Positions 32,513 to 52,141 of a stretch of DNA of 64,000 nt are shown here, one piece after another (position 1 is the stretch's first letter; each line of letters starts with the position of its first letter). The notes under the pieces were generated by a model. It searched no databases and was not told the origin of the DNA. It saw nothing but the letters and a program-made list of their open reading frames with translations. The position numbers and the translations under genes are program-made. The DNA comes from Frondihabitans sucicola (GTDB lineage: Bacteria > Actinomycetota > Actinomycetes > Actinomycetales > Microbacteriaceae): the NCBI RefSeq assembly GCF_030296615.1, contig NZ_AP027732.1:4035042-4099041 (forward strand). The letters run 5' to 3'.

Positions 32513-34149
32513 TCAGTCGCCGCGTCGGATGAAGGCGGCGACCAGCTCGCCGATCAGGACGGCCGTCGCGGCCGGGCCGCGCGACGGTGTCGTGGGCAGG
32601 ATCGACGTGTCGGCGACCCGGAGACCCGTCACGCCGTGCACGCGGCCGTACTGGTCGACGACCGCGCCCGGATCGCTCGCGGGCCCGAGGGACGCGCTTC
32701 CGCAGAGGTGGATCGCCGTGCCGAGGTGGCCGAGCATCCAGGTGTCGAGCAGTTCGTCGTCGTCGAGGATCTCGTCGGTCAGCTCGGTCAGCCGCCGGAA
32801 CAGGTGTTTGTAGGCCTCGGTCCGCAGGAGGGCGACGGTGGTGCGGACGGCCTCGCGCATCCGGGTGCGGTCGTCGTCGGTGTCGAGGTAGTGGTAGTCG
32901 ATGCGCGGCTGAATCTCGGGGTCGGCGGACTCGAGGGTGATCGCACCCCTGGACGTCTCCTGCTGCACGGCGACGATGAAGGTCAGATCGTCGCGGTGGA
33001 CGACCTGCTGGAAGAAGCGGCGGAGCGAGACGCCACGGAGGGCCGCGATCCAGGCGCGCGGGTGCCGCAGGGCGGCAAGGATCCCCCGCTCGTGCTCTGG
33101 GCGCTTCCGGTCAGCAGATAGCCGGTGGGCTTGATCATGGGCAGGATCTCGAGGTCGCCCTCCGATGCCGATCCTGCGGCGGTGAAATTGAGGCAGTCGG
33201 CCATCGACTGCCTGCTCGACGCGTCGACGATGTCGCGCTTGGGCTGCCATCCGACGTTGATCTCGGGGTGATCGCTGAAGTCTTTGCCGACGCCCGGCAG
33301 ATCGTGCACGACCCGGACGCCGTGCGCCTCCAGCTCGTCGCGGGGCCCGACGCCGGAGACGAGCAGCAGGTGGGGCGACTTCACCCCGCCGGCCGACAGG
33401 ACGATCTCGTCGGCTTCGACGAGGGAGACGGCACCGGCGCGAGAGATCTCCACGCCGCTGGCTCGGGTGCCGTCGAAGACGACGCGCCGCACATAGGTGC
33501 CGCCCTGCACGGTGAGGTTCGGCCGGTCGCGAACGGGATTGATGTAGGCGATGCCGGTGTTGAGGCGGAGCCCGTCGACGGAGTTCATCGGCACCGGCCC
33601 GTGCCCCGGTGCACCCTGAGCGTTCTTGTCCGGCTCCTCGGGGAAGCCCAGCTCGGCGGCGGCCCGACCGAACGCGACGGTCGCCGGGTGGTCTTGAGGA
33701 GGACGCGAGATCGTGACCGGACCGGACGAGCCGTGCTCCGGCGAGTCGCCGAACTGGAGGTCGTTCTCGAGCTTCCGGTAGAACGGCAGGACGGCGTCCC
33801 AGGCCCAGGCGTCGCTGCCGTCCGCCGACCAGCGGTCGAAATCGGAGCGGCGCGCGCGGATGAAGTAGGCACCGTTGATGCTGGACGAGCCGCCCAGGAT
33901 CCTGCCGCGCGCGACGACGTACGGGAGGGCCGGGGTGAGGTGACCGAGGAACGACCAGTTGTCGGGATGACCTGGCATGGCGCCCTGCACGGTGCCGGAG
34001 TCGAGGAGTTCTCGCGGGAATCCCGCCGTCGTCTCGGGGGTGGGTCCCGCCTCGAGGAGGAGCACCGACCGCTCGGGGTCTTCGGACAGACGCGCCGCCA
34101 GCGGGGCGCCGGCGGCACCCGCCCCGACGACGATCACGTCGTACTTCAC
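32513..34149 (-). CDS. mftG: Mycofactocin-associated GMC oxidoreductase MftG (one frameshift)
   Basis: Repaired length is about 545 residues. The protein is a glucose-methanol-choline oxidoreductase: FAD motif VIVVGAGAAGAPLAARLSE, GGSSSINGAYFIRAR, and the C-terminal active-site region AIHLCGSASLGP with VADTSILPTTPSRGPAATAVLIGE. MftG is thought to re-oxidise reduced mycofactocin (mycofactocinol) and pass electrons towards the respiratory chain. The frame breaks at the G3 run 33099-33101; an extra base restores GSAPEHERGILAAL. GTG 34149 overlaps the mftR stop as GTGA, with GGGAGG 9 bases upstream, so mftR and mftG are coupled. Confidence 0.88.
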
Positions 34150-34804
34150 TCGAGAGCGCCTCCCGGAGCCGTATCGCCTCGGGTGAGGGAGACGTCGGTG
34201 AGGTCGAAGCCGTTCGCGATCAGTCGGAGCGACCTGCCGAGAAGCTCGAGCAGGTCGGCGTCGTCGTGCCGCAGCCACTGCTCGTAGGCAGCGAGCGACG
34301 CGGACAGCATGGCCCAACCGACGGTCTGGGGCACGAGGTCTTCGGGGTCGAGGCCGGTGCGCTCGGCGACGAAATCGGCGATCGCCTGTCGCCACGACGC
34401 GTAGCGCAGGGCGGAGTGCGCGACGAGGGACGGCACGTTCAGCAGGAGGTCCATCCGCTGGCGGTGATAGAGGAACTCGTCTTCGGGGAACCGATTGAAC
34501 TCGATGACCGCGGCGCGAAGGGCGTCGCGCACCGGGACGTCCGGGGGAGGGCGAAGAGGTAGGCGCGCATCGACGCGATCATGGTGTCGAAGTCGCCCCA
34601 GGGCAGATCGTTCTTCGACGAGAAGTACCGGAAGAAGGTGCGGCGCCCGATCCCGGCCGCGGAGGCGATGTCGTCGATCGTCGTCGCGTCGAAGCCTCGC
34701 TCGATGAAGAGCTGAAGGCCGAGGTGGCTCAGCTGCGCGTTGGAAGTCGCCGGCTGCCGCCCGATCCGGGGAGCGTCTCCCGACGAGCTTTCTTCAACTT
34801 CCAC
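34146..34804 (-). CDS. mftR: Mycofactocin TetR regulator MftR (one frameshift)
   Basis: Repaired length is about 219 residues. The N-terminal TetR helix-turn-helix is clear (FIERGFDATTIDDIASAAGIGRRTFFRYFSSKND), and the C-terminal ligand domain (FNRFPEDEFLYHRQRMDLL; AERTGLDPEDLVPQTVGWAM) matches the mycofactocin system regulator family. The frame breaks at the G5 run 34543-34547; an extra base restores ALPPDVPVRDALRAAV. It is divergent from mftA, and the palindrome at 34822-34836 lies between their promoters. In mycobacteria MftR represses mft genes and responds to long-chain acyl-CoA; that this holds here is an inference. Confidence 0.88.
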
Positions 34805-34899: not shown

Positions 34900-35022
34900 A
34901 TGGACAGCATTTCATCGCAGATCGAAACCGACGCACAGGTCGATTCGAGCGCCGCAGGTTTGATCGAAGACGACAGTCTGGTCGAGGAGATCTCGATCGA
35001 CGGCATGTGCGGCGTCTACTAG
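34900..35022 (+). CDS. mftA: Mycofactocin precursor peptide MftA
   Basis: This 40-residue peptide starts MDSISSQIETDA and ends VEEISIDGMCGVY, the invariant MftA C-terminus. The last two residues, Val and Tyr, are the ones that MftC decarboxylates and cross-links and that MftE and MftD later turn into the redox-active premycofactocin core. The acidic N-terminal part is the leader bound by MftB. ATG 34900 has GAGG 6 bases upstream. The gene lies 16 bases before mftB and is divergent from mftR. It is too short for most gene finders. Confidence 0.97.
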   Translation: MDSISSQIETDAQVDSSAAGLIEDDSLVEEISIDGMCGVY

Positions 35023-35038: not shown

Positions 35039-35305
35039 ATGGATCTCGACCGAGCCTGGGATCTCCATCCGCAGGTCTCCGTCCGTCCAGAGCCCTTCGG
35101 AGCGTTGCTGTATCACTTCGGCACGCGAAAACTCTCCTTCCTGAAAGACCGCACTCTCCTCACGGTCGTTCAGTCGCTCGGTGACTCCCCGACGGCTCGC
35201 GCCGCGTGCACGGCCGCCGGCATCGCCGATTCCGACCTCGCCAAGTACTCCAGCGCCCTCGGCACCCTGGAGCGTTCGTCGATGGTCGTCGAAAGGACCC
35301 CATGA
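35039..35305 (+). CDS. mftB: Mycofactocin peptide chaperone MftB
   Basis: The 88-residue protein is a PqqD-like RiPP recognition element: WDLHPQVSVRPEPFGALLYHFGTRKLSFLK is the conserved winged-helix strand region, followed by a helical tail. MftB binds the MftA leader and presents it to MftC. Its stop overlaps the mftC start as ATGA, so the proteins are made together. The length is normal for the family. Confidence 0.93.
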   Translation: MDLDRAWDLHPQVSVRPEPFGALLYHFGTRKLSFLKDRTLLTVVQSLGDSPTARAACTAAGIADSDLAKYSSALGTLERSSMVVERTP

Positions 35306-36637
35306 CCACGGTTCTCCCCTCCACCTCGTTCTCCGCCCCCGTCGTGGCGGCGCCGCCGCCGCAACCTCAGCGTCTCGTCGACCTGTTCGAGTTCGGCCTC
35401 GATGCCCCGATCTGCCTCACCTGGGAGCTGACGTACGCCTGCAACCTGTCGTGCGTGCACTGCCTCTCGAGCTCCGGGCGCCGGGATCCCCGCGAGCTCA
35501 CCACCGACGAGGCCAAGGCGGTGATCGACGAGTTCCAGAAGATGCAGGTCTTCTACGTCAACATCGGTGGCGGCGAGCCGACGGTCCGCCCCGACTTCTG
35601 GGAGCTCATCGACTACGCCACCTCCCACGACGTGGGCGTCAAGTTCTCGACCAACGGCGTCAAGATCACCCCCGAGGTCGCTGCTCGCATCGCCACCAAC
35701 GACTACCTCGACATCCAGATCTCGATGGACGGAGCGACCCCCGAGGTCAACGACTACGTGCGCGGTCCCGGCTCGTACGCCACGGCCATCACCGCCATGA
35801 AGAACCTGTCCGAGGCGGGCTTCAAGAACTTCAAGCTGTCGGTGGTCTGCACCAGCCAGAACATCTCGCAGCTCGACCAGTTCAAGGAGATCGCCGACAC
35901 CTACGGCGCCCAGCTCCGCCTGACGCGACTGCGCCCCTCGGGCCGAGGCGCAGACGTGTGGGACGAACTGCACCCGACGAAGGAACAGCAGCGCGAGCTC
36001 TACGACTGGCTCGTGGCGCACGGCGACAACGTTCTGACCGGAGACTCGTTCTTCCACCTGTCGGCCTACGGAGACGCTCTCCCCGGTCTCAACATGTGCG
36101 GCGCAGGTCGCGTGGTCTGCCTGATCGATCCTGTCGGCGACGTCTACGCCTGCCCGTTCATGATCCACGACGACTTCAAGGCCGGGAACATCCGGTCCGA
36201 GGGCGGCTTCGAGGAGATCTGGAAGCACTCGGAGCTCTTCACCCGCCTGCGCCAGCCGCAGTCGGGCGGCGCCTGCGCGTCCTGCCAGTTCTTCAGCACC
36301 TGCAAGGGCGGCTGCATGGCGGCCAAGTTCTTCACCGGTCTCCCCTCGACGGGCCCGACCCGGAGTGCGTGCAGGGGTACGGCGAAGAGGCGCTGCTCAA
36401 GATCAAAGACGAGAAGAACGCGCTGCCGAAGTCGGGAGTCGACCACTCGCACCGCACCACGAAGCAGTCGAAGTCGGGCAAGGTCTACATCGCCCTCGGC
36501 CTGAAGTCCGATCTGACTGCGCCGCCGGTCAGCGCCTGCGCCGAAGACCCGCTGGCCGACTTCGCTCCGATCCCGGTCTCGAAGCCACCGGTCAGCGAGT
36601 GCGCCGAAGACCCCTGGCGGGCTTCCGCGCTCCCTGA
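35302..36637 (+). CDS. mftC: Mycofactocin radical SAM maturase MftC (two frameshifts)
   Basis: Repaired length is about 445 residues. MftC performs the oxidative decarboxylation and carbon-carbon cross-linking of the MftA C-terminal Val-Tyr. The SAM cluster motif is CNLSCVHC (CxxxCxxC), GGGEPTVRPDF binds SAM, and the SPASM domain has CGAGRVVC, ACPF and CASCQFFSTCKGGC. The frame breaks at the C4 run 36342-36345 (repair gives GLPLDGPDPECVQGYG) and again at the C4 run 36611-36614 (repair gives AEDPLAGFRAP then stop at 36637). The C-terminal motif PPVSxCAEDPLA is present twice, where other MftC proteins I know of have it once. Confidence 0.92.
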
Positions 36638-36926: not shown

Positions 36927-37760
36927 ATGGGGCGTGTAGAAGGAAAAGTGGCATTCATCACGGGAGCGGCGCGAGGACAGGGGCGGTCGCACGCGATCCG
37001 GCTCGCCCAGGAGGGCGCCGACATCATCGCCGTCGACCTCCTCGAGGCGATCCCCGGGGCCCCGTACGCGGCGGCCACGCAGGAGGACCTCGACGAGACG
37101 GTTCGCCAGGTCGAAGCCCTCGACCGGCGGATCGTCGCCAGTAAGGCCGACGTCCGCGACTACGAGGGGTTGAAGAAAGCCCTCGACGACGGAGTCGCCG
37201 AACTCGGGCGACTCGACATCGTCTCGGCCAACGCCGGAATCTCGACCCAGATGGCACCGACCGACGAACTCACCGAAGACATGTGGCAGAACATGATCGA
37301 CACCAACCTCACCGGTGTCTGGCACACCGCGAAGGCGGCCATCCCCCACCTCAAGGCGGGAGGACGGGGTGGCGCGATCATCCTCACGAGCTCCGAGGCG
37401 GGCATCAAGGGGTACGCGAACATCGCGCACTACGTCTCGGCCAAACACGGCGTCGTCGGGCTGATGCGCACCCTGGCCATCGAACTCGCGCCGGACATGA
37501 TCCGGGTCAACAGCATCCACCCGACCCAGGTCGACACCGACATGATCATGAACGAGGCGACCTACAGACTCTTCGCCCCGAACCTCGAGAATCCGACCCG
37601 GGAAGACTTCGCCCCGGCCTCGCAGGCGACCAACACGCTGCCGATCCCGTGGGTCGAAGCCGTCGACATCTCGAACGCCGTCCTCTTCCTCGCCTCCGAC
37701 GAGGCGCGGTACGTCACCGGCGTGCCCCTGCCGGTGGACGCCGGCTGCTTCCTCAAGTGA
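36927..37760 (+). CDS. Mycofactocin-coupled SDR, copy 1
   Basis: The 277-residue enzyme has the SDR cofactor motif TGAARGQGRSHA, a long insert after the second strand (EDLDETVRQVEALDRRIVASKADVRD) typical of mycofactocin-coupled SDRs, the NAG motif (SANAGIST) and catalytic Ser plus YVSAK. Enzymes of this family keep a bound nicotinamide and use mycofactocin as the external electron acceptor. GAAAGGAGCACGCG precedes the ATG. It is the first of four head-to-tail copies; the C-terminus GVPLPVDAGCFLK is complete. Confidence 0.92.
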   Translation: MGRVEGKVAFITGAARGQGRSHAIRLAQEGADIIAVDLLEAIPGAPYAAATQEDLDETVRQVEALDRRIVASKADVRDYEGLKKALDDGVAELGRLDIVSANAGISTQMAPTDELTEDMWQNMIDTNLTGVWHTAKAAIPHLKAGGRGGAIILTSSEAGIKGYANIAHYVSAKHGVVGLMRTLAIELAPDMIRVNSIHPTQVDTDMIMNEATYRLFAPNLENPTREDFAPASQATNTLPIPWVEAVDISNAVLFLASDEARYVTGVPLPVDAGCFLK

Positions 37761-37802: not shown

Positions 37803-38642
37803 ATGGGACGTGTAGAAGGGAAGGTCGCATTCATCACCGGTGCGGCCCGCGGGCAAGGCCGCTCGCACGCAATCCGGCTCGCCCAGGAGGGCGCGGACAT
37901 CATCGCCGTCGACATCGCCGAGGGCATCCCCAGCATCGAGCGCTACTACCCGGGAGCGACCGAGGAGGACCTCGCCGAGACGGTCCGCCAGATCGAGGCT
38001 CTCGACCGCAGGATCGTCGCCACGAAGGCCGACGTCCGCGACTACGACGCGCTGAAGGCCGCGCTCGACGACGGGGTGGCCCAGCTCGGCCACGTCGACA
38101 TCGTCTCGGCGAACGCCGGAGTCTTCGCCTTCGGCGACAAGACGCAGGAGGTGACGGAGCAGGACTGGCAGGACGTCATCGACATCAACGAGACCGGCGT
38201 CTGGCACACCTGCAAGGCCGTCATCCCGCACCTGATCGACCAGGGGACGGGCGGGTCGTTGATCCTCACGAGTTCGACGGCCGGTCTCAAGGGCACGCCG
38301 AACGTCGCCGCGTACACCGCCAGCAAGCACGCGGTGGTGGGCATCATGCGCACGCTCGCCCTCGAGCTCGCGCAGTACAGCGTGCGAGTCAACACGGTGC
38401 ACCCGACCGGGGTGGCGACCGACATGATCCTGAACGAGGCGGCCTGGAAGCTCTTCCTGCCCGATGTCGCCCACCCGACCCGGGAGCAGGCGGCGGAGGT
38501 CTTCGCCTCGACCAACGCGCTGCCGATCCCGTGGGTCGACCCCGTCGACATCTCGAACGCCGTGCTGTTCCTCGCCTCCGACGAGGCGCGGTACGTCACC
38601 GGCACCGAGCTGAAGATCGACGCGGGCTACACCATCAAATAG
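37803..38642 (+). CDS. Mycofactocin-coupled SDR, copy 2
   Basis: The 279-residue enzyme shares the first 22 residues almost exactly with copies 1 and 3 (MGRVEGKVAFITGAARGQGR). It has the mycofactocin-type insert (EEDLAETVRQIEALDRRIVATKADVRD), SANAGVFAFG, and the catalytic YTASKHAVVG. The centre diverges from its neighbours (WQDVIDINETGVWHTCKAV), so the substrate pocket probably differs. It begins 43 bases after copy 1 and is preceded by the same AAAGGAGCACGC leader. Confidence 0.92.
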   Translation: MGRVEGKVAFITGAARGQGRSHAIRLAQEGADIIAVDIAEGIPSIERYYPGATEEDLAETVRQIEALDRRIVATKADVRDYDALKAALDDGVAQLGHVDIVSANAGVFAFGDKTQEVTEQDWQDVIDINETGVWHTCKAVIPHLIDQGTGGSLILTSSTAGLKGTPNVAAYTASKHAVVGIMRTLALELAQYSVRVNTVHPTGVATDMILNEAAWKLFLPDVAHPTREQAAEVFASTNALPIPWVDPVDISNAVLFLASDEARYVTGTELKIDAGYTIK

Positions 38643-38683
38643 ACCTCGTCCCCAGCCGGGACGATCAGAGAAAGGAGCACGCG

Positions 38684-39517
38684 ATGGGGCGTGTAGAAGG
38701 AAAGGTCGCGTTCGTCACGGGCGCGGCGAGAGGCCAGGGGCGCAGCCACGCGCTGCGGCTCGCCCAGGAGGGCGCCGACATCATCGCCATCGACCTCACC
38801 GGCCAGATCGACTCCGTGCCGTACGCGATGTCGCAGCCGTCGGATCTCGAAGAGACCGTTCGGCAGATCGAAGCACTCGACCGCCGGATCGTCGCGACGA
38901 AAGCCGACGTCCGCGACTTCGACCAGGTCAAGGCCGCGGTCGACGACGGGGTCGCCCAGCTCGGCCGCCTCGACATCGTCTCGGCCAATGCCGGCATCTT
39001 CAGTTTCGGCAGCCTCGCCGACCTGGAGGAGCAGGTCTTCCGCGACATGATCGACGTCAACCTGACCGGCGTCTGGCACGCCGCCAAGGCGGCCATCCCT
39101 CACATCCGCGCCGGAGGCAGGGGCGGGTCGATCGTCCTGACCAGCTCGACGGCGGGGCTCGAGGGCATGGAGAACATCGGTCACTACGTCGCCGCCAAAC
39201 ACGGCGTCGTGGGGCTGATGCGCACCCTGGCGATCGAGCTCGCACCCGACATGATCCGCGTGAACAGCGTCCACCCGACGAGCGTCAACACCGACATGAT
39301 CCAGAACTCGGCGACCTACGCGCTCTTCGCCCCGGACCTGCCGGAAGCCGAGCGGACCAAGGAAACCCTGGGCGCGCGCTTCGGCGCACTCAACAAGCTG
39401 CCGATTCCGTGGGTCGAGCCGGTCGACATCTCGAACGCCGTGCTGTGGCTCGCCTCCGACGAGGCCCGCTACGTCACCGGCGTCACCCTGCCGGTGGACG
39501 CCGGCGAACAGCTGTAA
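38684..39517 (+). CDS. Mycofactocin-coupled SDR, copy 3
   Basis: The 277-residue enzyme has TGAARGQGRSHA, the insert SDLEETVRQIEALDRRIVATK, SANAGIFSFG and YVAAKHGVVG. Its C-terminal half is closest to copy 1 (TLAIELAPDMIRVNSVHPT), and the ends VTGVTLPVDAGEQL are intact. The frame is open upstream of ATG 38684, but GAAAGGAGCACGCG directly before it and the alignment with copies 1 and 2 fix the start. Confidence 0.92.
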   Translation: MGRVEGKVAFVTGAARGQGRSHALRLAQEGADIIAIDLTGQIDSVPYAMSQPSDLEETVRQIEALDRRIVATKADVRDFDQVKAAVDDGVAQLGRLDIVSANAGIFSFGSLADLEEQVFRDMIDVNLTGVWHAAKAAIPHIRAGGRGGSIVLTSSTAGLEGMENIGHYVAAKHGVVGLMRTLAIELAPDMIRVNSVHPTSVNTDMIQNSATYALFAPDLPEAERTKETLGARFGALNKLPIPWVEPVDISNAVLWLASDEARYVTGVTLPVDAGEQL

Positions 39518-39580: not shown

Positions 39581-40408
39581 ATGGGACAGCTCGACGGCAA
39601 AGTCGCCTTCATCACCGGCGCCGCCCGCGGACAGGGCCGGAGCCACGCGATCACCCTGGCCAAGGAGGGCGCCGACATCATCGCCATCGACGTGTGCAAG
39701 CAGGTCGACACGGTCCCGTATCCCGGAGCCACGTCCGAGGACCTCCAAGAGACGGTCCGCCAGGTCGAGGCGCTGGATCGCAGGATCATCGCCTCCGAAG
39801 TGGACATCCGCGACTACGCCGGGCTCAAGACGGCGGTCGACCAGGGAGTCGCCGACCTCGGCCGCCTCGACATCGTCGTGTCGCAGGCCGGGATCTCGAC
39901 CCCGGCGCCGACCCTCGAGATGGACGAGGAGACCTGGCAGACGATGATCGACGTCAATCTGACCGGGCAGTGGCACACCGTCAAGGCGGCGGTCCCGCAC
40001 ATCGTCTCCGGCGGCCGCGGTGGAGCGGTCGTCATCACGAGCTCGCTGGCGGCTCTGATCGCCAACGCGAACACGGCGCACTACTCGGCAGCGAAGGCCG
40101 GACTCGTCGGTCTCATGCGCGTGCTCGCGGTCGAGCTCGCTCCCCAGAGCATCCGCGTGAACACCATCCACCCGACGACCGTCAACACCGACATGATCCT
40201 GAACGAGCCGACCTACAAGCTGTTCCGGCCCGACCTTGCGACCCCGACCCGCGCCGACTTCGAGGTCGCCGCCCTGACCCTGAACAAGCTTCCGATCGCG
40301 GGTGTCGAGCCGATCGACATCTCCAACGCCGTGCTGTACCTGGTCGGGGACTCGGGCCGCTACGTGACCGGCACCACGCACGTCGTCGACGCCGGCGGTC
40401 AACTGTGA
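39581..40408 (+). CDS. Mycofactocin-coupled SDR, copy 4
   Basis: The 275-residue enzyme is the most divergent of the array (start MGQLDGKVAFITGAARG). The insert SEDLQETVRQVEALDRRIIASEVDIRD is present, NAG is replaced by SQAGIST, and the catalytic YSAAKAGLVG is intact. GAAAGGACACCCC precedes the ATG. Its stop overlaps the GTG start of the MoxR gene (GTGA), which ties the AAA+ protein to the SDR operon. Replacement of the canonical Asn in NAG is unusual and could affect the proton relay. Confidence 0.92.
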   Translation: MGQLDGKVAFITGAARGQGRSHAITLAKEGADIIAIDVCKQVDTVPYPGATSEDLQETVRQVEALDRRIIASEVDIRDYAGLKTAVDQGVADLGRLDIVVSQAGISTPAPTLEMDEETWQTMIDVNLTGQWHTVKAAVPHIVSGGRGGAVVITSSLAALIANANTAHYSAAKAGLVGLMRVLAVELAPQSIRVNTIHPTTVNTDMILNEPTYKLFRPDLATPTRADFEVAALTLNKLPIAGVEPIDISNAVLYLVGDSGRYVTGTTHVVDAGGQL

Positions 40409-41337
40409 CGGTGGAGGGCCAGTCGACCACGGATCGGCGCGGGAGCGAGACCCGAGGTCGCATCGCACGGCACCTGGTCGGTCGCGAGCGCGAGCTCGAA
40501 CTCGCCCTGGCCGCGGTCGGAGCCGGCCGCGACCTCGTCCTCGAGGGACCGCCGGGCACGAGCAAGACGACGATGCTCAAGGCGATCACCGAGGAGTGGG
40601 GCATCCCGCTGTTCTTCGTCGAGGGCAACGCCGATCTCACCGCGGCGAAACTCGTCGGTCACCACAATCCCGCTCGGGTGCTCAAGGAGGACTACAGCGC
40701 GGACACGTTCGTACCCGGTCCCCTCGCCCTGGCGATGGAGAACGGCGGATTCCTCTACATCGAGGAGTTCAACCGGGCACCGGAGGACACTCTCAACACC
40801 CTGCTCACGGCCATGGCCGACCGGCGCATCGAGGTGCCGCGCGTGGGCCTCATCACGGCGGCGCCGACCTTCCGGGTGATCGCGTCGATGAACCCGTTCG
40901 ACAACGTCGGCACGACGAGACTCTCCACGAGTGTCAGCGACCGCCTCAACCGCATCGTCGTCGGGTACCAGGACGCCGAGGCGGAGGCGGGGATCGTGCG
41001 GCTCCGGTCTCGACTCGTGGGGCGTCTCGGCGACCGCATCGTCGGCGACGCCGTCGCGGTGACCCGGGCGACTCGCAGCCACCCCGACGTCCGACAGGGC
41101 AGCAGCGTGCGTGGCGCGATCGACTGCGCCCTGATCACCGACGAGCTCTCCGCCCTGCGCGACCTCGCCGACCCGGACGACGATCGCTACCCCGAGACCT
41201 TCTTCGACGCGATGGTCGTGTCGCTGTCGGGCCGCATCCATCTCGACGAGGCAGCCGAGACCACGGCGGAGCGCGTGCTCCGGGAGATCTGGGAGGACCG
41301 CTTCGTGCTCGAGCCCGCACGAGCCGAGCCCGGCTGA
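40405..41337 (+). CDS. MoxR-family AAA+ ATPase
   Basis: The 310-residue protein has Walker A GPPGTSKTT (Ser in place of the usual second Gly), Walker B FLYIEEFNRAPE, sensor 1 in VIASMNPFDNVG and an arginine-finger region (LSTSVSDRLNRIVVGY). MoxR ATPases act as chaperones with VWA proteins to insert cofactors or metals into oxidoreductases, as in CoxD-CoxE or NorQ-NorD. Its start overlaps the stop of SDR copy 4, and a VWA gene follows. I do not know of this pair as a core part of mycofactocin loci. Confidence 0.88.
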   Translation: MTVEGQSTTDRRGSETRGRIARHLVGRERELELALAAVGAGRDLVLEGPPGTSKTTMLKAITEEWGIPLFFVEGNADLTAAKLVGHHNPARVLKEDYSADTFVPGPLALAMENGGFLYIEEFNRAPEDTLNTLLTAMADRRIEVPRVGLITAAPTFRVIASMNPFDNVGTTRLSTSVSDRLNRIVVGYQDAEAEAGIVRLRSRLVGRLGDRIVGDAVAVTRATRSHPDVRQGSSVRGAIDCALITDELSALRDLADPDDDRYPETFFDAMVVSLSGRIHLDEAAETTAERVLREIWEDRFVLEPARAEPG

Positions 41338-41442
41338 AGAGCCGTCGAGGCCGACTCCCCGATCCGCCGCGAGGCGAAGTCGCGCCCGGAGCCGGCCAGG
41401 CCTCTGGCACGCAGGCCGAAGCGGCTGGACCAGGATCCCACG

Positions 41443-42318
41443 GTGTTCGACGCCGTCGCGGGCCCGGGTGGCCTCGCGCTGCGGCCGCAACCCGGCAGAT
41501 CGGGCAAAGCGGCGAAGCGTCCGCAGGGCTCCGGCGCGGGATTCACGGACGACCCCGCCGATCTGGTGCCGCTCGAGGAGGATCCGGCCGAGGCGGAACC
41601 CGGCGTCCGCGAGCGCGCGCGAGCGATCGCAGCCCGGCTCTCCGTCCCGAAGCCGAAGGCCGACCGCACGGCGCGCAGAGGCGCGGGCGACGTGGCCAGC
41701 CTTCCCTACGCCGAGGGCAGCGACGAGATCGATCTCGACGCGACCCTGGAGGTCCTCGCCGAGAAGCCGATGCCGGAGGACGACGACATCGTCGTCCGCG
41801 AGCGCGTCAGGACGAAGCGCTCCGTCGTGCTGGCCGTCGACGTCTCGGGCTCGATGAAGGGAGAGCGGATCCGGACGGCGGCGGCCACGGTCGGGGCTCT
41901 GGCTGCGGAACTCGACCAGGACGCGCTCGGAGTGATCGCCTTCTGGTCGGACGCAGCGGTGCTGCTCGAGCTCGGCCGGAGAATCGATCCGATGGCACTG
42001 CTCGACCAGATGCTGCGCATCCCCGCCCGGGGCCTGACCAACGTCGGGTTTCCGCTCACGATCGCCGCGAGCCAGCTGGCCGGGGTCCCGCAGCGGGATG
42101 CGCGCGTGATCCTGCTCTCCGACTGTGTCCACAACGCCGGGCCCGACCCGCGACCTCTCGCCGCTCTGCTGCCCCGCCTCGACGTGCTGCTCGACACCAG
42201 CGGCGAGAAGGACGTCGAGCTCGGACACGAGCTGGCCAGGATCGGACGCGGCTCGTTCCGGCCGGTCCGGACGCATCACGACATCGCCCCCGCCCTCAGC
42301 GCCCTGTTCCGGAACTGA
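41443..42318 (+). CDS. VWA domain protein, partner of the MoxR ATPase
   Basis: The visible protein is 291 residues. A disordered N-terminal half is followed by a CoxE-like VWA domain with a complete metal site: DVSGSMKG (DxSxS), Thr in GLTNVGFPL and Asp in LLSDCVHNAG. Such proteins partner a MoxR ATPase and recognise its client. The same frame is open back to 41338, directly after the MoxR stop, and GTG 41443 has no ribosome site, so the start is uncertain; a missing base near 41330-41440 could hide the real one. Confidence 0.82.
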   Translation: MFDAVAGPGGLALRPQPGRSGKAAKRPQGSGAGFTDDPADLVPLEEDPAEAEPGVRERARAIAARLSVPKPKADRTARRGAGDVASLPYAEGSDEIDLDATLEVLAEKPMPEDDDIVVRERVRTKRSVVLAVDVSGSMKGERIRTAAATVGALAAELDQDALGVIAFWSDAAVLLELGRRIDPMALLDQMLRIPARGLTNVGFPLTIAASQLAGVPQRDARVILLSDCVHNAGPDPRPLAALLPRLDVLLDTSGEKDVELGHELARIGRGSFRPVRTHHDIAPALSALFRN

Positions 42319-42342
42319 CCGGGAAGTCCCCCTTCCCCCTGT

Positions 42343-42357
42343 GGCACTCGGTGCCAT
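42343..42357 (+). promoter_or_regulatory. Candidate MftR operator 2 (mftD)
   Basis: GGCACTCGGTGCCAT matches the site before mftR/mftA at 13 of 15 bases and lies 56 bases before the mftD start. It suggests an internal, MftR-controlled promoter for mftD-mftE-SDR-mftF. Confidence 0.75.
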
Positions 42358-42413
42358 AATGAACGGAGCACACGGCGGTGCAGCCGCGGTGCACGAACGA
42401 GAGTGAGGGTCCG

Positions 42414-43667
42414 ATGGCCAGGAATCCGTGGTTCGAGACAGTGGCGGAAGCTCAGCGCCGAGCCAAGAAGCAGCTTCCCAGTTCGGTCTACGGGGCACTC
42501 GTCGCGGGCTCCGAGCGCGGCCTGACGATCGACGACAACATCGGGGCGTTCTCCGAGCTGGGCTTCGCGCCGCACGTCGCGGGGCACAAGGCGAACCGCG
42601 ACCTGTCGACGACCGTGCTCGGGATCCCGATCGACTTCCCCGTGATCATCTCGCCCACCGGTGTCCAGGCGGTCCACCCCGACGGCGAAGTGGCCGTCGC
42701 GAGAGCCGCGGCAGCACGGGGCACGATCATGGGCCTCAGCTCGTTCGCGAGCAAACCGATCGAAGAGGTCGCCAAGGCGAACCCCAACACCTTCTTCCAG
42801 ATGTACTGGACGGGCACGCGAGACCAGATGATCCAGCGAATGGATCGCGCACGGGCCGCCGGTGCGAAGGCGCTCATCTCGACCCTCGACTGGTCGTTCT
42901 CGAACGGTCGCGACTGGGGCAGCCCGGCCATCCCCGACAAGCTCGACCTGAAGACGATGGTGAAGTTCGCGCCGAACGTCCTGCCTCACCCGTCGTGGCT
43001 GCTGCGCTACGCGAAGGAGCGCACCCTTCCCGACCTGACGACGCCCAACCTCCAGCCGCCGGACGGCCCGGCGCCGACGTTCTTCGGCGCGTACTACGAG
43101 TGGATGCAGACACCCCCGCCCACCTGGGAGGACGTCGCCTGGCTCGCCAAGGAGTGGGGCGGCCCGTTCATCCTCAAGGGCGTGAGCCGCGTCGACGATG
43201 CGCGAAGAGCCGTCGACGCCGGTGTGAACGCCATCTCCGTGTCGAACCACGGCGGCAACAACCTCGACTCGACGCCGGGCACGATCCGCATGCTGCCGTC
43301 GGTCGTCGAAGCGGTCGACGGCCAGATCGAGGTCCTCCTCGACGGCGGCATTCGCCGTGGCGGCGACGTCGCGAAGGCGCTGGCCCTGGGCGCACGCGCC
43401 GTCCTCATCGGGCGCGCGTACCTGTGGGGCCTCGCCGCGAACGGCCAGGCCGGTGTCGAGAACGTCCTCGACATCCTGAAGGGCGGTCTCGACTCCGCCG
43501 TGCTGGGCACCGGGCACGCTTCCGTCCACGAGCTCTCGGCCGACGACCTCGTCATCCCCGACGGCTTCACCCGCACGCTGGGAGGGTCGGCTCTCGCCGC
43601 CGCCACGGCCGGCGGGCGCCCCCGCGCGACGAAGACGACCCCGCGGACGAAGAACCCGATCGGGTAG
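42414..43667 (+). CDS. mftD: Mycofactocin FMN oxidase MftD
   Basis: The 417-residue protein belongs to the FMN-dependent alpha-hydroxy-acid oxidase family. The catalytic histidine region is ISVSNHGGNNLD, the FMN phosphate site is LLDGGIRRGGDVAKALALGA, and the N-terminal RAKKQLPSSVYGALVAGSERG is typical of MftD. It deaminates and oxidises the cyclised dipeptide AHDP to premycofactocin, creating the redox-active diketone. ATG 42414 (MARNPWFETV) is preferred over an in-frame upstream start because GAGTGAGG precedes it. The last 25 residues are a basic low-complexity tail. Confidence 0.94.
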   Translation: MARNPWFETVAEAQRRAKKQLPSSVYGALVAGSERGLTIDDNIGAFSELGFAPHVAGHKANRDLSTTVLGIPIDFPVIISPTGVQAVHPDGEVAVARAAAARGTIMGLSSFASKPIEEVAKANPNTFFQMYWTGTRDQMIQRMDRARAAGAKALISTLDWSFSNGRDWGSPAIPDKLDLKTMVKFAPNVLPHPSWLLRYAKERTLPDLTTPNLQPPDGPAPTFFGAYYEWMQTPPPTWEDVAWLAKEWGGPFILKGVSRVDDARRAVDAGVNAISVSNHGGNNLDSTPGTIRMLPSVVEAVDGQIEVLLDGGIRRGGDVAKALALGARAVLIGRAYLWGLAANGQAGVENVLDILKGGLDSAVLGTGHASVHELSADDLVIPDGFTRTLGGSALAAATAGGRPRATKTTPRTKNPIG

Positions 43668-43677
43668 CGTCACGTCC

Positions 43678-44394
43678 ATGGCCGCCCCACTCACCGGCTG
43701 GACCGAACTGGCCTCGGCCACGTGGCCCGAGGTGCCCGAATCGCCGCTTGTCCTCGTCCCCACCGGGTCGACCGAGCAGCACGGGCCGCACCTGCCGTTC
43801 CACACCGACAGCGTCGTCGCGCGCGCCGTCGCCACGGGCGTCGCCGAGACGTTGCCCGGGCAGGTCGTGGTCGCGCCCACCATCGCGTTCGGGGCCAGCG
43901 GCGAGCACGCCGACTTCCCCGGGACGATCTCGATCGGCCACGACGCGCTCCACGCACTCCTCGTCGAGACGGTGCGCTCCCTCGACCTCTGGGCGGGGCG
44001 CGTCGTCTTCGTGAACGGCCACGGCGGCAACGTCGTAACGGTGCGCCGGGTCGTGGCCGAGATGCGAGCCGAAGGGCACGACGTCGACTGGGCTCCGTGC
44101 GTCCTGCCCGGCGGCGACGCCCACGCCGGCCTGACCGAGACCTCCCTCATGCTGCACCTCCGGCCGGGCGACGTCCGGATCGACCTCGCCGAGCCCGGCG
44201 AATCCGCGCCGCTCGAAGAGATCCTGCCGCTCATGACGCGTTCCGGTGTTCGGGCCGTCTCGCCGAACGGAATTTTGGGCGATCCGACCGGCGCCTCTGC
44301 CGCTCAGGGCCGCGAGTTCCTCGCAACCATGGTCGACGGCGTCGTCCGACGCCTGGCGACCACCGCACCACCACCCGTCACCACGATTCCCTAG
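43678..44394 (+). CDS. mftE: Mycofactocin precursor peptidase MftE
   Basis: The 238-residue protein is a creatininase-family metallopeptidase. Metal ligands are seen in GSTEQHGPHLPFHTDS and GASGEHADFPG, and NGHGGN is intact. MftE cleaves the modified MftA to free the C-terminal Val-Tyr-derived dipeptide AHDP. It begins 10 bases after mftD and ends 9 bases before the next SDR, so all are in one operon. Confidence 0.94.
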   Translation: MAAPLTGWTELASATWPEVPESPLVLVPTGSTEQHGPHLPFHTDSVVARAVATGVAETLPGQVVVAPTIAFGASGEHADFPGTISIGHDALHALLVETVRSLDLWAGRVVFVNGHGGNVVTVRRVVAEMRAEGHDVDWAPCVLPGGDAHAGLTETSLMLHLRPGDVRIDLAEPGESAPLEEILPLMTRSGVRAVSPNGILGDPTGASAAQGREFLATMVDGVVRRLATTAPPPVTTIP

Positions 44395-44403
44395 GAGAAC
44401 ATC

Positions 44404-45218
44404 ATGACCGGACGCCTCGAGGGCAAAGTCGCCTTCATCACCGGTGCTGCACGCGGCCAGGGCCGCGCCCACGCCGTCAAACTGGCCTCGGAGGGGGCCG
44501 ACATCATCGCCGTCGACATCGCCGGACCGCTTCCGCTCGTCCCGTACGACTCGCCGACCATGGCCGACGTCGACGAGACGGTGAGACTCGTCGAAGAACT
44601 CGACCGGCGAATCCTGTTCGAGCAGTGCGACACCCGCGATCTCGAGAAGATGCGCGCTTTCGTCGATGCCTCGGTCGCCAACCTCGGCAGGCTCGACGTC
44701 GTCGTCGGCAACGCCGGCATCTGCATCCCCGCCACGTGGGACGAAACGACCCCCGACATGTTCCAGACCACGATGGACATCAACGTCGTCGGAACCTGGA
44801 ACACGGTCATGGTCGGCGCGCCCCACCTCGTGACGGCGGGCGGCGGATCGATCATCCTGACGAGTTCGTACGCGGGCAAGAAGATGCAGCCGTTCATGGT
44901 TCACTACACGGCGAGCAAGCACGCCGTCACCGGAATGACTCGCGCCTTCGCCGCCGAACTGGGCAAGCACAACATCCGCGTCAACAGCGTCCACCCGGGA
45001 GCGGTCAACACGCCCATGGGATCCGGCGACATGATCGCAGCGATCACCCATACCAACGAGAGCAACCCCCGCTCGCCGGCATGGGAACCCCGTTCCTCCC
45101 CACCTACTCCGCCGAGGCCGAGGACATCGCGAACGCCGTGGCCTTCCTCGCCTCCGACGACGCGCGTCTCATCACGGCCGAACACCTGAGCATCGATCAG
45201 GGTGCGCAGTACTTCTGA
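44404..45218 (+). CDS. Mycofactocin-coupled SDR, copy 5 (one frameshift)
   Basis: Repaired length is about 271 residues. It has TGAARGQGRAHA, the insert ADVDETVRLVEELDRRILFEQ, GNAGICIPA and YTASKHAVTG. The frame breaks at the C5 run 45066-45070; one extra C restores NESNPPLAGMGTPFL and the end SIDQGAQYF. It lies between mftE and mftF, the place where most mft loci keep their companion SDR, so it may be the ancestral copy and the array after mftC a later expansion. Confidence 0.9.
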
Positions 45219-46651
45219 TCGGCCGGCGGCCGAAGCCCTGCCGGCACCTCCCCCGGGGGCGGGCTGCCGATCGGTTTCGCGGTGCGCCTCGGCCACGCGG
45301 TCCGGGTGGAGGACTCCGGTACGACCCTGATCGGCGGTTCGCCCACGCGGGTCCTCTACCTCAAGCCCGCGGCGGGGCGGCTGCTCGCCGATCGCACCCT
45401 CACCGTGCAGGATCCCGCGACCCGCGCCCTCGCCGACCGTCTCCTCGACGCCGCGATGGCCGAGCCGATCGTCTCCACGCTCACTCCCCCGCCGGTGCAC
45501 GAGGTCACCTTCGTGATCCCTGTCTACGGCCGGCCGGATGCTCTCGACCGGCTCCTGGCGAGCCTGCCGACCGGCTCGCGCGCCCTCGTCGTCGACGACG
45601 TCTCGCCCGACCGCGAAGCCATCGTCGCGGTCGCCGAACGCCACGGCGCCGAGTTCCTCCCGCTCGATGTCAACGGGGGTCCGGCCCGTGCGCGCAACGT
45701 CGGTCTCGGCCACGTCACGACGGCATTCGCCGCCTTCGCCGACACCGACCTCGTGCTCGACGACCAGACGGTGCCGACGATGCTCGCGCATTTCGCCGAT
45801 CCCCGCGTCGCCCTCGTGGCGCCGCGCGTGCACGGACTCCGCGACGACACCGGGCTGAACTGGGTCGGGCGGTACGAACAGGCGAGGTCCTCGCTCGATC
45901 TGGGCGAGCATCCGGCCCTCGTCCGCCAGCGGTCGCCCGTCTCCTGGGTTCCCGCGGCCTTCCTCATCGGCAGGACCACAGCCCTCGGCGCCGGGTTCAG
46001 TGCCGAGATGCGCGAGGGGAAGACGTCGACCTCATCTGGCGGCTCGCCGATGCCGGATGGCGCGTCCGCTACGAACCCGCGGCGGCCGTGTGGCACGAGC
46101 ACCGGCAGCGCGTGATCGCCTGGCTCGGCCGGAAGGCCTTCTACGGCAGCTCCGCGCACCCGCTGGCCGTGCGGCACGGAGCCGACGTCGCTCCGGCGGT
46201 CCTCGCGCCCTGGAACGTCGGCGTCATCGCGGCCCTCCTCGCACAGCGCCGCTGGTCGCTGCCGGTGGCCCTGGGAATGACCCTCGTGACGGTCTGGCGC
46301 GTGTCGCGAAAACTCCGGCGCAGCGATCGACCCGTTCGGCAGGCCGCCCGCCTGACCGCGAACGGAGTCGGGTCGTCGCTGGTGCAGACGACGGCGCTCC
46401 TCGTCCGGCACTGGTGGCCGGTCGCAGTCGTCCTCAGCGTCTTCTCGGCGCGGATCCGGCGCGCTCTGCTCGTCTCGGCCGTCGTCGACGCCGGCATCGA
46501 GTGGGCGCGTCTCCGACCCGACCTCGACCCCGTCCGGTTCGGCCTGGCCAGGCGCCTCGACGACCTCGCCTACGGCGCGGGCGTGTGGTGGTCCGCCGCG
46601 AAGGGCCGATCCCTCCGGGCCGTGCTGCCGCACATCACCCGGCGCGACTGA
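45202..46651 (+). CDS. mftF: Mycofactocin glycosyltransferase MftF (frameshifted)
   Basis: Repaired length is about 483 residues, near the usual size. A GT-A glycosyltransferase core is present (VTFVIPVYGRPDAL; VVDDVSPD; NGGPARARNVGL; FADTDLVLDD), then EDVDLIWRLADAGWRVRYEP and a C-terminal part with hydrophobic segments. MftF adds beta-1,4-glucose units to premycofactocin. The frame breaks at the G4 run 46016-46019. The conserved start GLPIGFAVRLG lies upstream of the first in-frame GTG (45282); GTG 45202, inside the end of the SDR gene, fits if one base is missing in the C5-G5 run near 45250-45259. Confidence 0.86.
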
Positions 46652-49162: not shown

Positions 49163-49206
49163 TATCCCCAATTGCCGCTTGGGCCGCGATCTATCCACAG
49201 ATTGCC
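49163..49206. promoter_or_regulatory. Direct repeat in the pucR-gabT promoter
   Basis: TATCCCCAATTGCC (49163-49176) and TATCCACAGATTGCC (49192-49206) are near-identical and about 29 bases apart, close to three helical turns. CCCAA/TTGGG and TGCC/GGCA inverted repeats overlap them. They are candidate PucR binding sites. Confidence 0.55.
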
Positions 49207-49295
49207 AAAACGGCATACCTCGCGTGTCGTGCACTCCCTACATTGGCGTCTATCCGTTCTGCACCACCCTGATCAGCACCCCTGAGGAGGCCACC

Positions 49296-50672
49296 GTGAC
49301 GATCGTCGATTCCAGCGACGCAGGGCCCTACGTTCCCGGCCAGACGACGGGCGGGCCCGGCCTGCCCCAGCGCCGACGCCTCGTCACCGAGATCCCCGGC
49401 CCCCGTTCCCGGGAGCTCCTCGCGCGCAAGTCGAGTGCCGTCGCCCGCGGTGTCGGAATCAGCCTGCCGGTCTTCACCGACGCGGCCGGCGGCGGCGTCC
49501 TCGTCGACGTCGACGGCAACAGCTTCATCGACTTCGGCACCGGCATCGCGGTCACCGGTGTCGGCAACGCCGCTCCCGGCGTCGTCACGGCGGTGCAGCA
49601 GCAGGTCGAGCGGTACACCCACACGTGCTTCATGATCACGGGCTACGACTCCTACGTCGACGTCGCCGAAGCCCTGAATCGTCTCACGCCCGGCGACCAC
49701 GACAAGCGCACGGCTCTGTTCAACACGGGTGCGGAGGCCGTCGAGAACGCCGTCAAGATCGCCCGCTCCTACACCGGGCGGCCCGCCGTGATCGCGTTCG
49801 ACCACGCATATCACGGCCGAACCAACCTCACGATGGCGCTCACGGCCAAGGCGATGCCCTACAAGTCGGGTTTCGGTCCGTTCGCGCCCGAGATCTACCG
49901 AGCACCGCTCTCCTACCCGTACCGCGACGGCCTGAGCGGCGACGAGGCCGCCCGCGAGGCCATCGCGATGATCGAGAAGCAGGTCGGTGCCGCTTCCGTG
50001 GCCGCCGTCATCATCGAGCCGATCCAGGGCGAGGGCGGCTTCATCGTGCCCGCACCCGGGTTCCTCAGCGCGCTCTCCGCGTGGGCGACCGAGAACGGGG
50101 TCGTCTTCATCGCCGACGAGGTCCAGACCGGCTTCGCCCGGACGGGCGCGATGTTCGCCAGCGAGCACGAGGGCATCGTCCCCGACCTCATCGCGACGGC
50201 CAAAGGCATCGCCGGCGGCCTTCCCCTGTCGGCGGTCACAGGGCGGGCAGAGATCATGGACGCCCCGCACGTGGGCGGCCTCGGCGGCACCTACGGCGGA
50301 AACCCGGTCGCCTGCGCTGCCGCGCTGGCGGCGATCGAGGCCTACGAGCACGACGGTCTCATCGAGCGCGCCGGCGAGATCGAGACACTCATGAAGGCGC
50401 GGCTCACCGACCTCCAGTCGCGCGACCCTCGCATCGGTGATGTCCGCGGTCGCGGCGCCATGATCGCCATCGAGCTCGTCGATCCGCTCACCGGCGAGCC
50501 CGACGCAGCCCTCACGGCGGCGGTCGCCAAGCACAGTCACGATAACGGCGTGGTGCTGCTGACCTGCGGTACGTTCGGCAACGTCATCCGATTCCTTCCG
50601 CCCCTGTCCATCAACGACGCCTTACTCCACGACGGCCTCGACGTCGTGGCGCACGCCCTGGAGGCAGCATGA
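49296..50672 (+). CDS. gabT: 4-aminobutyrate aminotransferase
   Basis: The 458-residue PLP enzyme converts GABA and 2-oxoglutarate to succinate semialdehyde and glutamate. Class III aminotransferase features are NTGAEAVENAVKIAR, FDHAYHGRTNL, IEPIQGEGG, FIADEVQTGFARTG and the PLP lysine in TAKGIAGGLPLSA. GTG 49296 is chosen because TGAGGAGG lies 5 bases upstream and earlier in-frame ATGs lie in the promoter. The next gene, gabD, starts inside its last codon (ATGA). Confidence 0.95.
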   Translation: MTIVDSSDAGPYVPGQTTGGPGLPQRRRLVTEIPGPRSRELLARKSSAVARGVGISLPVFTDAAGGGVLVDVDGNSFIDFGTGIAVTGVGNAAPGVVTAVQQQVERYTHTCFMITGYDSYVDVAEALNRLTPGDHDKRTALFNTGAEAVENAVKIARSYTGRPAVIAFDHAYHGRTNLTMALTAKAMPYKSGFGPFAPEIYRAPLSYPYRDGLSGDEAAREAIAMIEKQVGAASVAAVIIEPIQGEGGFIVPAPGFLSALSAWATENGVVFIADEVQTGFARTGAMFASEHEGIVPDLIATAKGIAGGLPLSAVTGRAEIMDAPHVGGLGGTYGGNPVACAAALAAIEAYEHDGLIERAGEIETLMKARLTDLQSRDPRIGDVRGRGAMIAIELVDPLTGEPDAALTAAVAKHSHDNGVVLLTCGTFGNVIRFLPPLSINDALLHDGLDVVAHALEAA

Positions 50673-52141
50673 CCATCACCGCTTCTCGAGAGCAGCAGAT
50701 CCTCACCTCGGTGCCGACCGACCTCCTCATCAACGGTGTCTGGCGTCCGGCTCAGAGCGGCAGCACCTTCGCCGTCATCGACCCCGCCACCGGCGACGAA
50801 CTGGCCCAGGTCGCCGACGGCACCCCGGCCGACGGCATCGCCGCGCTCGACGCCGCCGACGCGGCCGCGGCCGACTGGGCCGCCACCGCGCCGCGCAAGC
50901 GGGGCGAGATCCTCCGTCGCGCCTTCGACCTCGCCATCGAGCACCAGGAGGACCTCGCCGTCCTCATGACGATCGAGATGGGCAAGTCCCTTCCCGAAGC
51001 TCGAGGCGAGGTCACCTACGGGGCCGAGTTCCTGCGCTGGTTCTCCGAAGAGGCGGTCCGCATCTCGGGCCGCTACGGCCGGAACCCCGAGGGCACGGGC
51101 ACGGCCATCGTGTCGCACCGGCCCGTGGGGCCGTGCCTTCTCATCACGCCGTGGAACTTCCCGCTCGCCATGGCGACGCGCAAGATCGCACCAGCCTTGG
51201 CGGCCGGGTGCACCGTCGTCCTCAAGCCGGCCGAGCTCACCCCGCTCACGAGCCTCTTCCTCGGCTCGTTGCTGCTCGAGGCGGGCGTTCCCGACGGGGT
51301 CGTCAACATCGTCACGACCACCGATTCGTCGGGAGTCGGCTCGGCACTGATGGCCGACCCGAGGCTGCGCAAGGTGAGTTTCACCGGGTCGACGCCGGTG
51401 GGCAAGGTCCTGCTCAAGCAGGCGGCCGACAACGTGCTGCGCACGTCGATGGAGCTCGGCGGCAACGCCCCCTTCCTGGTCTTCGACGACGCCGACATCG
51501 AGGCTGCCGTCGCCGGCGCCATGCTCGCCAAATTCCGCAACATCGGTGAAGCCTGCACCGCGGCGAACCGCTTCTTCGTCCACGCGTCCGTCGCCAACGA
51601 GTTCGCCTCACGGCTCACCGCCAAGGTCCGCGAACTGGGCGTCGGGCGCGGCACCGACGACGGCGTGTCGATCGGCCCCCTCATCAATGCCGCCGCCGTG
51701 GAGAAGAACGCCGAGCTCGTCGACGACGCCACTTCCCGCGGGGCGACGATCGTCACCGGCGGAAGCGCGATCGACGGCCCCGGCACCTTCTTCGCGCCGA
51801 CCGTGCTGACCGGCATCCAGCCCGGCACCCGCCTCCTGCGCGAAGAGATCTTCGGCCCCGTCGCAGCGATCACGACGTTCGAGACCGAAGACGAGGGAGT
51901 GCGGCTGGCCAACGACACCGAGTTCGGTCTCGTGTCCTACGCGTTCACTCGCGACCTGGCGCGCGGGCACCGACTCGTCGACAGCCTCCGCTCCGGCATG
52001 CTCGGTCTCAACACGGGCGTCGTCTCCAACGCCGCCGCCCCCTTCGGCGGCGTGAAGTCGTCCGGCCTCGGTCGAGAGGGCGGCCTCGAAGGCATCCACG
52101 AATACCTCGACACCACCTACACGCTGATTCCCGCGAGCTGA
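50669..52141 (+). CDS. gabD: Succinate-semialdehyde dehydrogenase
   Basis: The 490-residue aldehyde dehydrogenase oxidises succinate semialdehyde to succinate. The catalytic residues are Glu in MELGGNAPF and Cys in NIGEACTAANR; the cofactor loop is TPWNFPLAMATRKIAPALAAG and the NAD(P) motif is VSFTGSTPVGK. It overlaps gabT by four bases and precedes the aminobutyraldehyde dehydrogenase by 12, so the three genes form one operon that leads to the citric acid cycle. Confidence 0.93.
   Translation: MTITASREQQILTSVPTDLLINGVWRPAQSGSTFAVIDPATGDELAQVADGTPADGIAALDAADAAAADWAATAPRKRGEILRRAFDLAIEHQEDLAVLMTIEMGKSLPEARGEVTYGAEFLRWFSEEAVRISGRYGRNPEGTGTAIVSHRPVGPCLLITPWNFPLAMATRKIAPALAAGCTVVLKPAELTPLTSLFLGSLLLEAGVPDGVVNIVTTTDSSGVGSALMADPRLRKVSFTGSTPVGKVLLKQAADNVLRTSMELGGNAPFLVFDDADIEAAVAGAMLAKFRNIGEACTAANRFFVHASVANEFASRLTAKVRELGVGRGTDDGVSIGPLINAAAVEKNAELVDDATSRGATIVTGGSAIDGPGTFFAPTVLTGIQPGTRLLREEIFGPVAAITTFETEDEGVRLANDTEFGLVSYAFTRDLARGHRLVDSLRSGMLGLNTGVVSNAAAPFGGVKSSGLGREGGLEGIHEYLDTTYTLIPAS

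Follow-up and report, generated by a model that had tools for sequence, protein, structure and literature searches.

What do a MoxR-type AAA+ ATPase and a VWA-domain protein do inside a mycofactocin (mft) operon, and are they the products of two genes or of one? We addressed this question for Frondihabitans sucicola, in a stretch of 64,000 nucleotides (contig NZ_AP027732.1, positions 4,035,042 to 4,099,041; called the window below, with all positions in its own numbering). The original prediction, which placed the two proteins within the mft operon, with VWA before mftD, was borne out by Pfam and NCBIfam matches. The MoxR start also overlaps the stop of the fourth copy of a mycofactocin-coupled short-chain dehydrogenase/reductase (SDR), as had been claimed: the GTG at 40405-40407 and the TGA at 40406-40408 share a 4-nucleotide GTGA overlap. 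The idea of a gene pair held only in part, since both proteins are real but most likely come from one recoded gene, a single frame interrupted by one TGA. We consider it probable that a programmed leaky UGA in this gene gives both MoxR and a MoxR-VWA fusion, which would co-assemble into a remodeller of mycofactocin SDRs.

A TGA conserved in frame between MoxR and VWA

In the window, MoxR and VWA lie in one frame with the TGA at 41335-41337 as their sole separator. A scan of named genomes confirmed 182 relatives, of which the best 80 were kept, and the same arrangement was found in all 80 loci, as well as in ten other genomes of the window's family, several of which recur among the 80. Because the scan ran on peptide patterns of the VWA part, it did not select for the stop. 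The loci represent at most 78 genomes (L078 and L120 come from one genome, as do L105 and L131), and their records include Microbacteriaceae, Streptomyces, Kineosporia, Nesterenkonia, Arthrobacter, Rhodococcus, Geodermatophilaceae, Williamsia, Trebonia and Jiangella. Two contigs, from a Mucilaginibacter (L075) and an Acidobacteria (L100) metagenome-assembled genome (MAG), resemble mis-binned actinobacterial sequence, as judged by similarity.

Over the 81 junctions (window and 80 loci), the internal stop was TGA and the next (+4) base A in every case, while 1206 other gene ends in the same loci (crude gene calls, MoxR ends left out), taken as a control, had TGA in 767 cases (64%) and A at +4 in 172 (14%). 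Codon -1 encoded Gly in 78 and codon -2 Pro in 80 of the 81, codon +1 was AGA (51), AGG (28) or AAA (2), and the junction peptide had a consensus of about [AED]PG*R[AE]VEADSP. The codons themselves were skewed: AGR, which accounts for 5.6% of the 5174 other Arg codons in these genes, was used for 79 of 79 Arg at +1, and the Gly codon at -1 was GGG in 1 of 78 cases (versus 24% of other Gly codons) and GGT in 35 of 78 (versus 12%).

The reading frame after the TGA was under purifying selection. The ratio of nonsynonymous to synonymous substitutions (dN/dS) was 0.31 for codons +2 to +11 and 0.24-0.27 for the MoxR C-terminus; the +2 to +11 stretch gave 0.9 and 2.5 in the other two frames, and the linker from +12 to +20, which is unaligned, about 1.2. 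No conservation was seen beyond VWA's own stop. Because long open frames are common in GC-rich loci such as these (at 385 of 1178 other gene ends the frame continues for at least 100 codons), we rejected openness and used conservation as evidence. On a tree (a single FastTree run with long outgroup branches, from which L187, L193, L154 and L191 were left out), all 86 leaves of the TGA clade (support 0.90) kept TGA over 16.9 amino acid substitutions per site. With changes counted on 79 leaves (79 of the 81 junctions, because L070 and L125 were dropped as too short), the internal stop and its +4 base changed 0 times each, VWA's own stop 7 times and its +4 base 31 times, and the third positions of codons -10 to -1 and +1 to +11 changed 16-34 times each. 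Two of the alignments used were smaller, A3 covering the window and 30 of the 80 loci and A4 the window and 28.

No conserved start codon was found for a separate VWA protein. The GTG at 41443, which the open reading frame (ORF) tool gave as the VWA start, does not mark the true N-terminus: the similarity to homologues extends to the very first residue of the query, itself begun at codon 2 after the MoxR stop. The first ATG, GTG or TTG after the TGA fell anywhere from codon 3 to codon 107, and in 48 of the 81 junctions none occurred in codons +1 to +13, though conservation begins at +1. A conventional start overlapping the stop as NTGA was rejected because the overlap base varies (T in 36, C in 22, A in 20 and G in 3 of the 81); GTG would have been expected to be common. 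In two Rhodococcus plasmids (L203 and L204) the RefSeq annotation has separate genes, VWA beginning 46 and 145 nucleotides after the MoxR stop; these VWA proteins seem too short at their start. Three features by which read-through is recognised were found together, namely coding conservation in frame after the stop, a stop and context kept beyond background, and no conserved alternative start.

MoxR matched Pfam AAA_5 (82.6 bits) and AAA_3 (48.6 bits), and the second protein matched VWA_2 (44.3 bits) and VWA_CoxE (26.9 bits); the DVSGSMKG, LTN and LLSDC of the VWA half were invariant in an alignment of 11 sequences. The nearest PDB folds found by Foldseek were CbbQ2 (E 4.6e-16) and NorQ (E 5.8e-16), in matches that align to the AAA+ part. 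An AlphaFold model of the read-through protein (31 sequences) comprised an AAA+ domain up to about residue 302, a stretch (304-337) that contains the TGA residue, 311, with a predicted local distance difference test score (pLDDT) below 50, and then the VWA domain. The linker holding the TGA residue is presumably disordered, as far as the model goes. Because the mean pLDDT was 76.9 and the predicted template modelling score 0.44, the placement of the domains in this model is unreliable. Membership in a defence ternary system (bpMoxR) was considered and rejected (PF20030, 23.9 bits versus a cut-off of 27; best PADLOC match IetA, 18.6 bits over a short stretch).

Relatives that encode the two products differently

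Relatives without a stop were found among 396 genomes of the phylum (L146-L150 and L152); they are 41-53% identical and match nearly the whole read-through protein, L146 as a single 814-codon frame. One further such relative, G689, came from a class sample of 148. In L151 the junction reads ...AAPG-CAC-IALDADNPI, His replacing the stop. A tandem form was found in G251 and G434 (L205 and L206), where mycofactocin SDRs are followed by a separate MoxR gene (304 and 330 codons), and this immediately by a MoxR-VWA gene (664 and 738 codons); gene duplication would here supply both products. L211-L213 have a single fused ORF, placed between MftC and MftD.

In a single genus (L188-L190), MoxR ends in ...CAT TTT TTC TGA and VWA goes on in the -1 frame. 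The T_TTT_TTC fits a slippery heptamer and was seen only there; outside this site Phe was TTC in 29 of 29 cases. The -1 product, HFF-LRARRSPGG..., aligns with HFILEPARAEPG-stop, and L190 has no start codon in the VWA frame between the preceding stop and the slippery site. Because L188 and L189 are nearly identical, the frameshift type was sampled independently about twice; its family also includes two genomes of the TGA type. At the MoxR end of L188, L189 and L190, the candidate -1 frameshift site TTTTTTCTGA is followed just downstream by a GCCCGG/CCGGGC stem, present in all three. The downstream stretch of these loci folded no better than mononucleotide shuffles (z 2.0, 0.5 and -0.5).

The sense-codon fusions and the frameshift type stood beside the TGA clade on the tree (supports 0.989 and 0.942), and further fusions formed outgroups. 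Because fusions both flank the TGA clade and form its outgroups, a single ORF is likely to be the ancestral state.

Linkage to mycofactocin genes

Homologues of the MoxR-VWA module do not usually lie away from mft genes, an arrangement that would have spoken against the original prediction. An mft gene or an mft-type SDR at least 50% identical was present in the fetched flank of 76 of the 80 loci, and in 70 an mft-type SDR was directly upstream on the same strand. MftD was found in the flanks of 50 loci and MftC in those of 46. Of nine neighbouring proteins assigned with NCBIfam, eight were SDRs, all scoring above the TIGR03971 cut-off; the remaining one, a MoxR, came from a locus that has no SDR next to the module. 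The 34 loci without MftC in the flank belong to 33 genomes, 27 of which have MftC elsewhere. In the 199 genomes of the window's family, 11 had a strong VWA match, 11 had MftC above cut-off and 9 had both; MftC accompanies a MoxR fragment at a contig end in G101 and stands alone in G018, and G064 and G132 have the VWA gene without MftC.

Module and SDRs, with no MftC found, occur in G132, G737, G738, G740, G743, G745 and G746, some of which have MftD or MftF. These genomes may lack parts of the assembly, or their owners may use mycofactocin made by others. In the two Rhodococcus plasmids (L203 and L204) the module lies in regions that look catabolic; mycofactocin SDRs are present, and the stretch shown contains no genes for mft biosynthesis. 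Several other Rhodococcus loci have the module with SDRs, away from mft biosynthesis genes.

The original prediction had proposed the loading or exchange of a cofactor in the SDRs, MftD or MftG. The SDRs fit better as clients than MftD or MftG, because the Rhodococcus modules sit with SDRs away from mft biosynthesis. By analogy with CbbQO and NorQD, the most economical function for the module would be that of an ATP-driven remodeller that loads, repairs or frees the buried NAD of the SDRs.

In the window, MftC, four TIGR03971 SDRs, MftD and MftE scored above their NCBIfam cut-offs around MoxR and VWA (Table 1). Further out were MftF in two pieces, which match the MftF model in two parts, each alone below the cut-off, the C-terminal part of MftR, and another TIGR03971 SDR. 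In the flanks of the other loci, MftF was recognised by its similarity to these two pieces. MftR (34146-34804), SDR copy 5 (44404-45189) and MftF (45282-46651) are split over two frames or truncated, through assembly indels or gene decay; the C-terminus of MftC also appears shifted. A 40-residue ORF at 34900-35022 ends in IDGMCGVY, which we take to be the MftA signature; this ORF is likely MftA and 35039-35305 likely MftB, both assigned without a model test. Downstream of the mft operon, at 49179-52138, are genes resembling those for 4-aminobutyrate transaminase and succinate-semialdehyde dehydrogenase.

Table 1. Positions of the proposed recoded gene and neighbouring mft genes in the window
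Feature	Position	Strand	Remarks
MoxR-type AAA+ ATPase, 310 residues	40405..41337	+	ORF; product when translation ends at TGA; Pfam AAA_5; Walker A GPPGTSKT; nearest by Foldseek CbbQ2/NorQ
Proposed recoding site CCC GGC TGA AGA (Pro-Gly-stop-Arg)	41329..41340	+	TGA = 41335-41337
Read-through ORF MoxR-[TGA]-VWA	40405..42318	+	637 residues, TGA counted as one
VWA half, 326 codons before stop	41338..42318	+	Pfam VWA_2; DVSGSMKG of metal-ion-dependent adhesion site (MIDAS) type; no conserved start codon
Mycofactocin-coupled SDR copy 1 (likely client)	36927..37760	+	TIGR03971 408.9 bits, cut-off 300
Mycofactocin-coupled SDR copy 2 (likely client)	37803..38642	+	TIGR03971 400.4 bits
Mycofactocin-coupled SDR copy 3	38531..39517	+	TIGR03971 412.1 bits from ORF residue 55; true start about 38684
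Mycofactocin-coupled SDR copy 4	39581..40408	+	TIGR03971 386.8 bits; stop overlaps MoxR start
MftC radical SAM maturase	35206..36504	+	TIGR03962 623.9 bits, cut-off 265
MftD	42378..43667	+	TIGR03966 691.3 bits
MftE	43678..44394	+	TIGR03964 307.8 bits

Proposed read-through, its rivals and known systems

According to the explanation that we favour, most ribosomes would end at the UGA and release the 310-residue MoxR-type ATPase, while a fraction would insert an amino acid, expected to be Trp, at Pro-Gly-UGA-A and go on to make the 637-residue MoxR-VWA fusion. Both products would co-assemble into an AAA+ ring bearing few VWA domains, like NorQ6-NorD1, in a ratio set by the rate of read-through; we conjecture that a read-through rate of roughly one in six would place a single VWA in each ring. 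The ring would then remodel the mycofactocin-dependent SDRs, most likely by loading, repairing or freeing their buried NAD. The properties of the site are consistent with such a scheme. In E. coli, UGA is the leakiest stop and mostly yields Trp (PMC11126739, which also cites an earlier study with 14% read-through of UGA in one context), a UGA followed by A is especially prone to misreading by tRNA-Trp (PMC5289835), and release is slow for peptides ending in Pro or Gly (PMC7246954). The conserved Pro-Gly-UGA-A unites the misreading context and the slow release.

One alternative is that of two ordinary genes, VWA being produced by coupled re-initiation at a non-standard or internal start after MoxR termination, with the shared frame as an incidental feature. 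It would agree with the RefSeq annotation of the Rhodococcus plasmids, with the presence of a start codon at +3 or +9 in 33 of the 81 junctions, with the Shine-Dalgarno-like bases that follow the TGA in some of them, with the enrichment of T and A at the third base of the Gly codon, which makes NTGA overlaps, and with the existence of ordinary two-gene pairs among more distant relatives. We nevertheless find it improbable, since the peptide is conserved from codon +1, where no in-frame start can precede, the first available start is widely scattered, a GTG overlap occurs in just 3 of 81, neither the frame nor the TGA varies among the 81, and relatives show sense-codon fusions and a slippery-site form. 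A dedicated recoding of the UGA, as selenocysteine or with other special factors, would account for the strict conservation of a triplet that is indeed the Sec codon, but the best SelB match in the window's genome (92% complete, the one genome tested) reached 202.2 bits versus a cut-off of 242.25, and no Rfam match was obtained for window positions 40300-42400 at E<=1. Furthermore, the homologous position in the fused relatives is His or Gly, not Cys, and a tRNA search limited to the window and 30 loci found no tRNA gene in the former and only one for Leu and one for His in the latter. We regard this possibility as very remote. The broken-looking frames of MftF, MftR and SDR5 indicate that the window's assembly has indels or decay, and could suggest that the TGA is itself a sequencing error or the trace of a decaying fusion gene; this idea is refuted by the presence of the same TGA in all 80 other loci and by the purifying selection downstream of it, and it retains practically no likelihood.

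Recoding could also be real and serve a different client, for example MftD, MftG, mycofactocin transport or a metal enzyme, instead of the SDRs. In support of this, MftD is in the flanks of 50 of the 80 loci, in L115 and L126 MftD is present while the module has no adjacent SDR, and the known MoxR-VWA systems include ones acting on metal enzymes (NorQD, CO dehydrogenase). We think it rather unlikely because of the SDR directly upstream on the same strand in 70 of the 80 loci, the Rhodococcus SDR neighbourhoods without mft biosynthesis genes, and the position of the tandem form after SDRs in two distant genomes.

Several observations weigh against the leaky-UGA explanation or restrict it. RNAalifold, run on 29 junctions, predicted 3 weak base pairs near the TGA, none with changes on both sides, and so revealed no conserved RNA structure; a stimulatory structure 3' of the stop is common, though not universal, in read-through genes. 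The start codons at +3 or +9 mean that some of the VWA protein could possibly be made alone from internal starts. The more distant MoxR/VWA pairs (MoxR about 45-51% and VWA about 30% identical) are mostly ordinary genes in different frames. L151 is a MAG sequence with frameshifts elsewhere in the gene. The frameshift type rests on a single genus, in which L188 and L189 carry GTGs in the VWA frame inside MoxR, 283-349 nucleotides upstream, so that internal initiation is possible in these two loci. No second MoxR was found in the 19 kb fetched around the fused ORF of L211-L213, and a free MoxR is therefore not required everywhere. As to mycofactocin, seven genomes have the module without MftC (six of the 33 mentioned above, and G132).

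It is also possible, though we put this short of an even chance, that recoding is a repeatedly evolved device for setting AAA+/VWA stoichiometry, an ancestral single-ORF MoxR-VWA having gained a leaky UGA once in Actinomycetes and, separately, a -1 slippery site in a sister lineage, with gene duplication elsewhere. Each route would give a mixed ring, with many plain ATPase subunits and few VWA-bearing ones, that installs or rescues the locked-in NAD of mycofactocin-dependent dehydrogenases. As growth conditions influence UGA read-through, the pathway might be tuned by it as well.

The formation of AAA+ and AAA+-VWA products from one recoded gene (chlD) is already known, and so are MoxR-VWA machines. 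Through recoding, fs-chlD yields the AAA+ small and the AAA+-VWA medium chelatase subunits (PMC9227772, PMC3711429), by a -1 frameshift at A_AAA_AAR (PMC5009743) that reached up to 63% in reporters (PMC3711429). As with the gene studied here, it is annotated as two adjacent genes and fused relatives exist; unlike it, the window gene would use an in-frame UGA, and it is linked to mycofactocin SDRs. Membership in the chelatase family (ChlD/BchD/CobT) was itself rejected (TIGR02031, 30 bits versus a cut-off of 499.55; TIGR02442, 23-30 bits versus 779.45). NorQ-NorD and CbbQ-CbbO each consist of two separate genes and proteins. The window module resembles them in associating a MoxR AAA+ with a MIDAS-bearing VWA, and in its nearest PDB folds; it differs in that VWA would be fused to an ATPase subunit by recoding, and in its clients. 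The NorQ hexamer binds one NorD (PMC9976466).

With respect to the mycofactocin system (MftA-G and the TIGR03971 SDRs), the module stands in the operon or beside its SDRs. No description of MoxR or read-through together with mycofactocin was found among the open-licence literature matches listed, the one paper that contains both words being, by its title, on Mycobacterium chelonae prophages, and PMC3023750 gave zero matches for ATPase, AAA, VWA or chaperone. Programmed read-through genes have in common with the window gene a conserved coding sequence after the leaky UGA; judging from the titles of the matches listed, most cases concern viruses and eukaryotes, and frequent read-through of in-frame stops has been inferred for prokaryotic genes (PMC7918605). 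What is new here is a non-chelatase, mycofactocin-linked AAA+/VWA machine with a proposed in-frame UGA read-through.

The literature that we searched offers little documentation of UGA read-through that is functional and widely conserved in a bacterial gene on the chromosome. If our explanation is correct, read-through joins a pair of protein modules in many actinobacterial genera, some relatives probably using a frameshift instead, and the subunit ratio of an AAA+ machine is set during translation. Public annotations would then split the MoxR-VWA protein and clip its N-terminus. For the mycofactocin system, the finding adds a probable maturation or repair factor, and it makes testable the question of how SDRs with a buried, non-exchangeable NAD are loaded or rescued.

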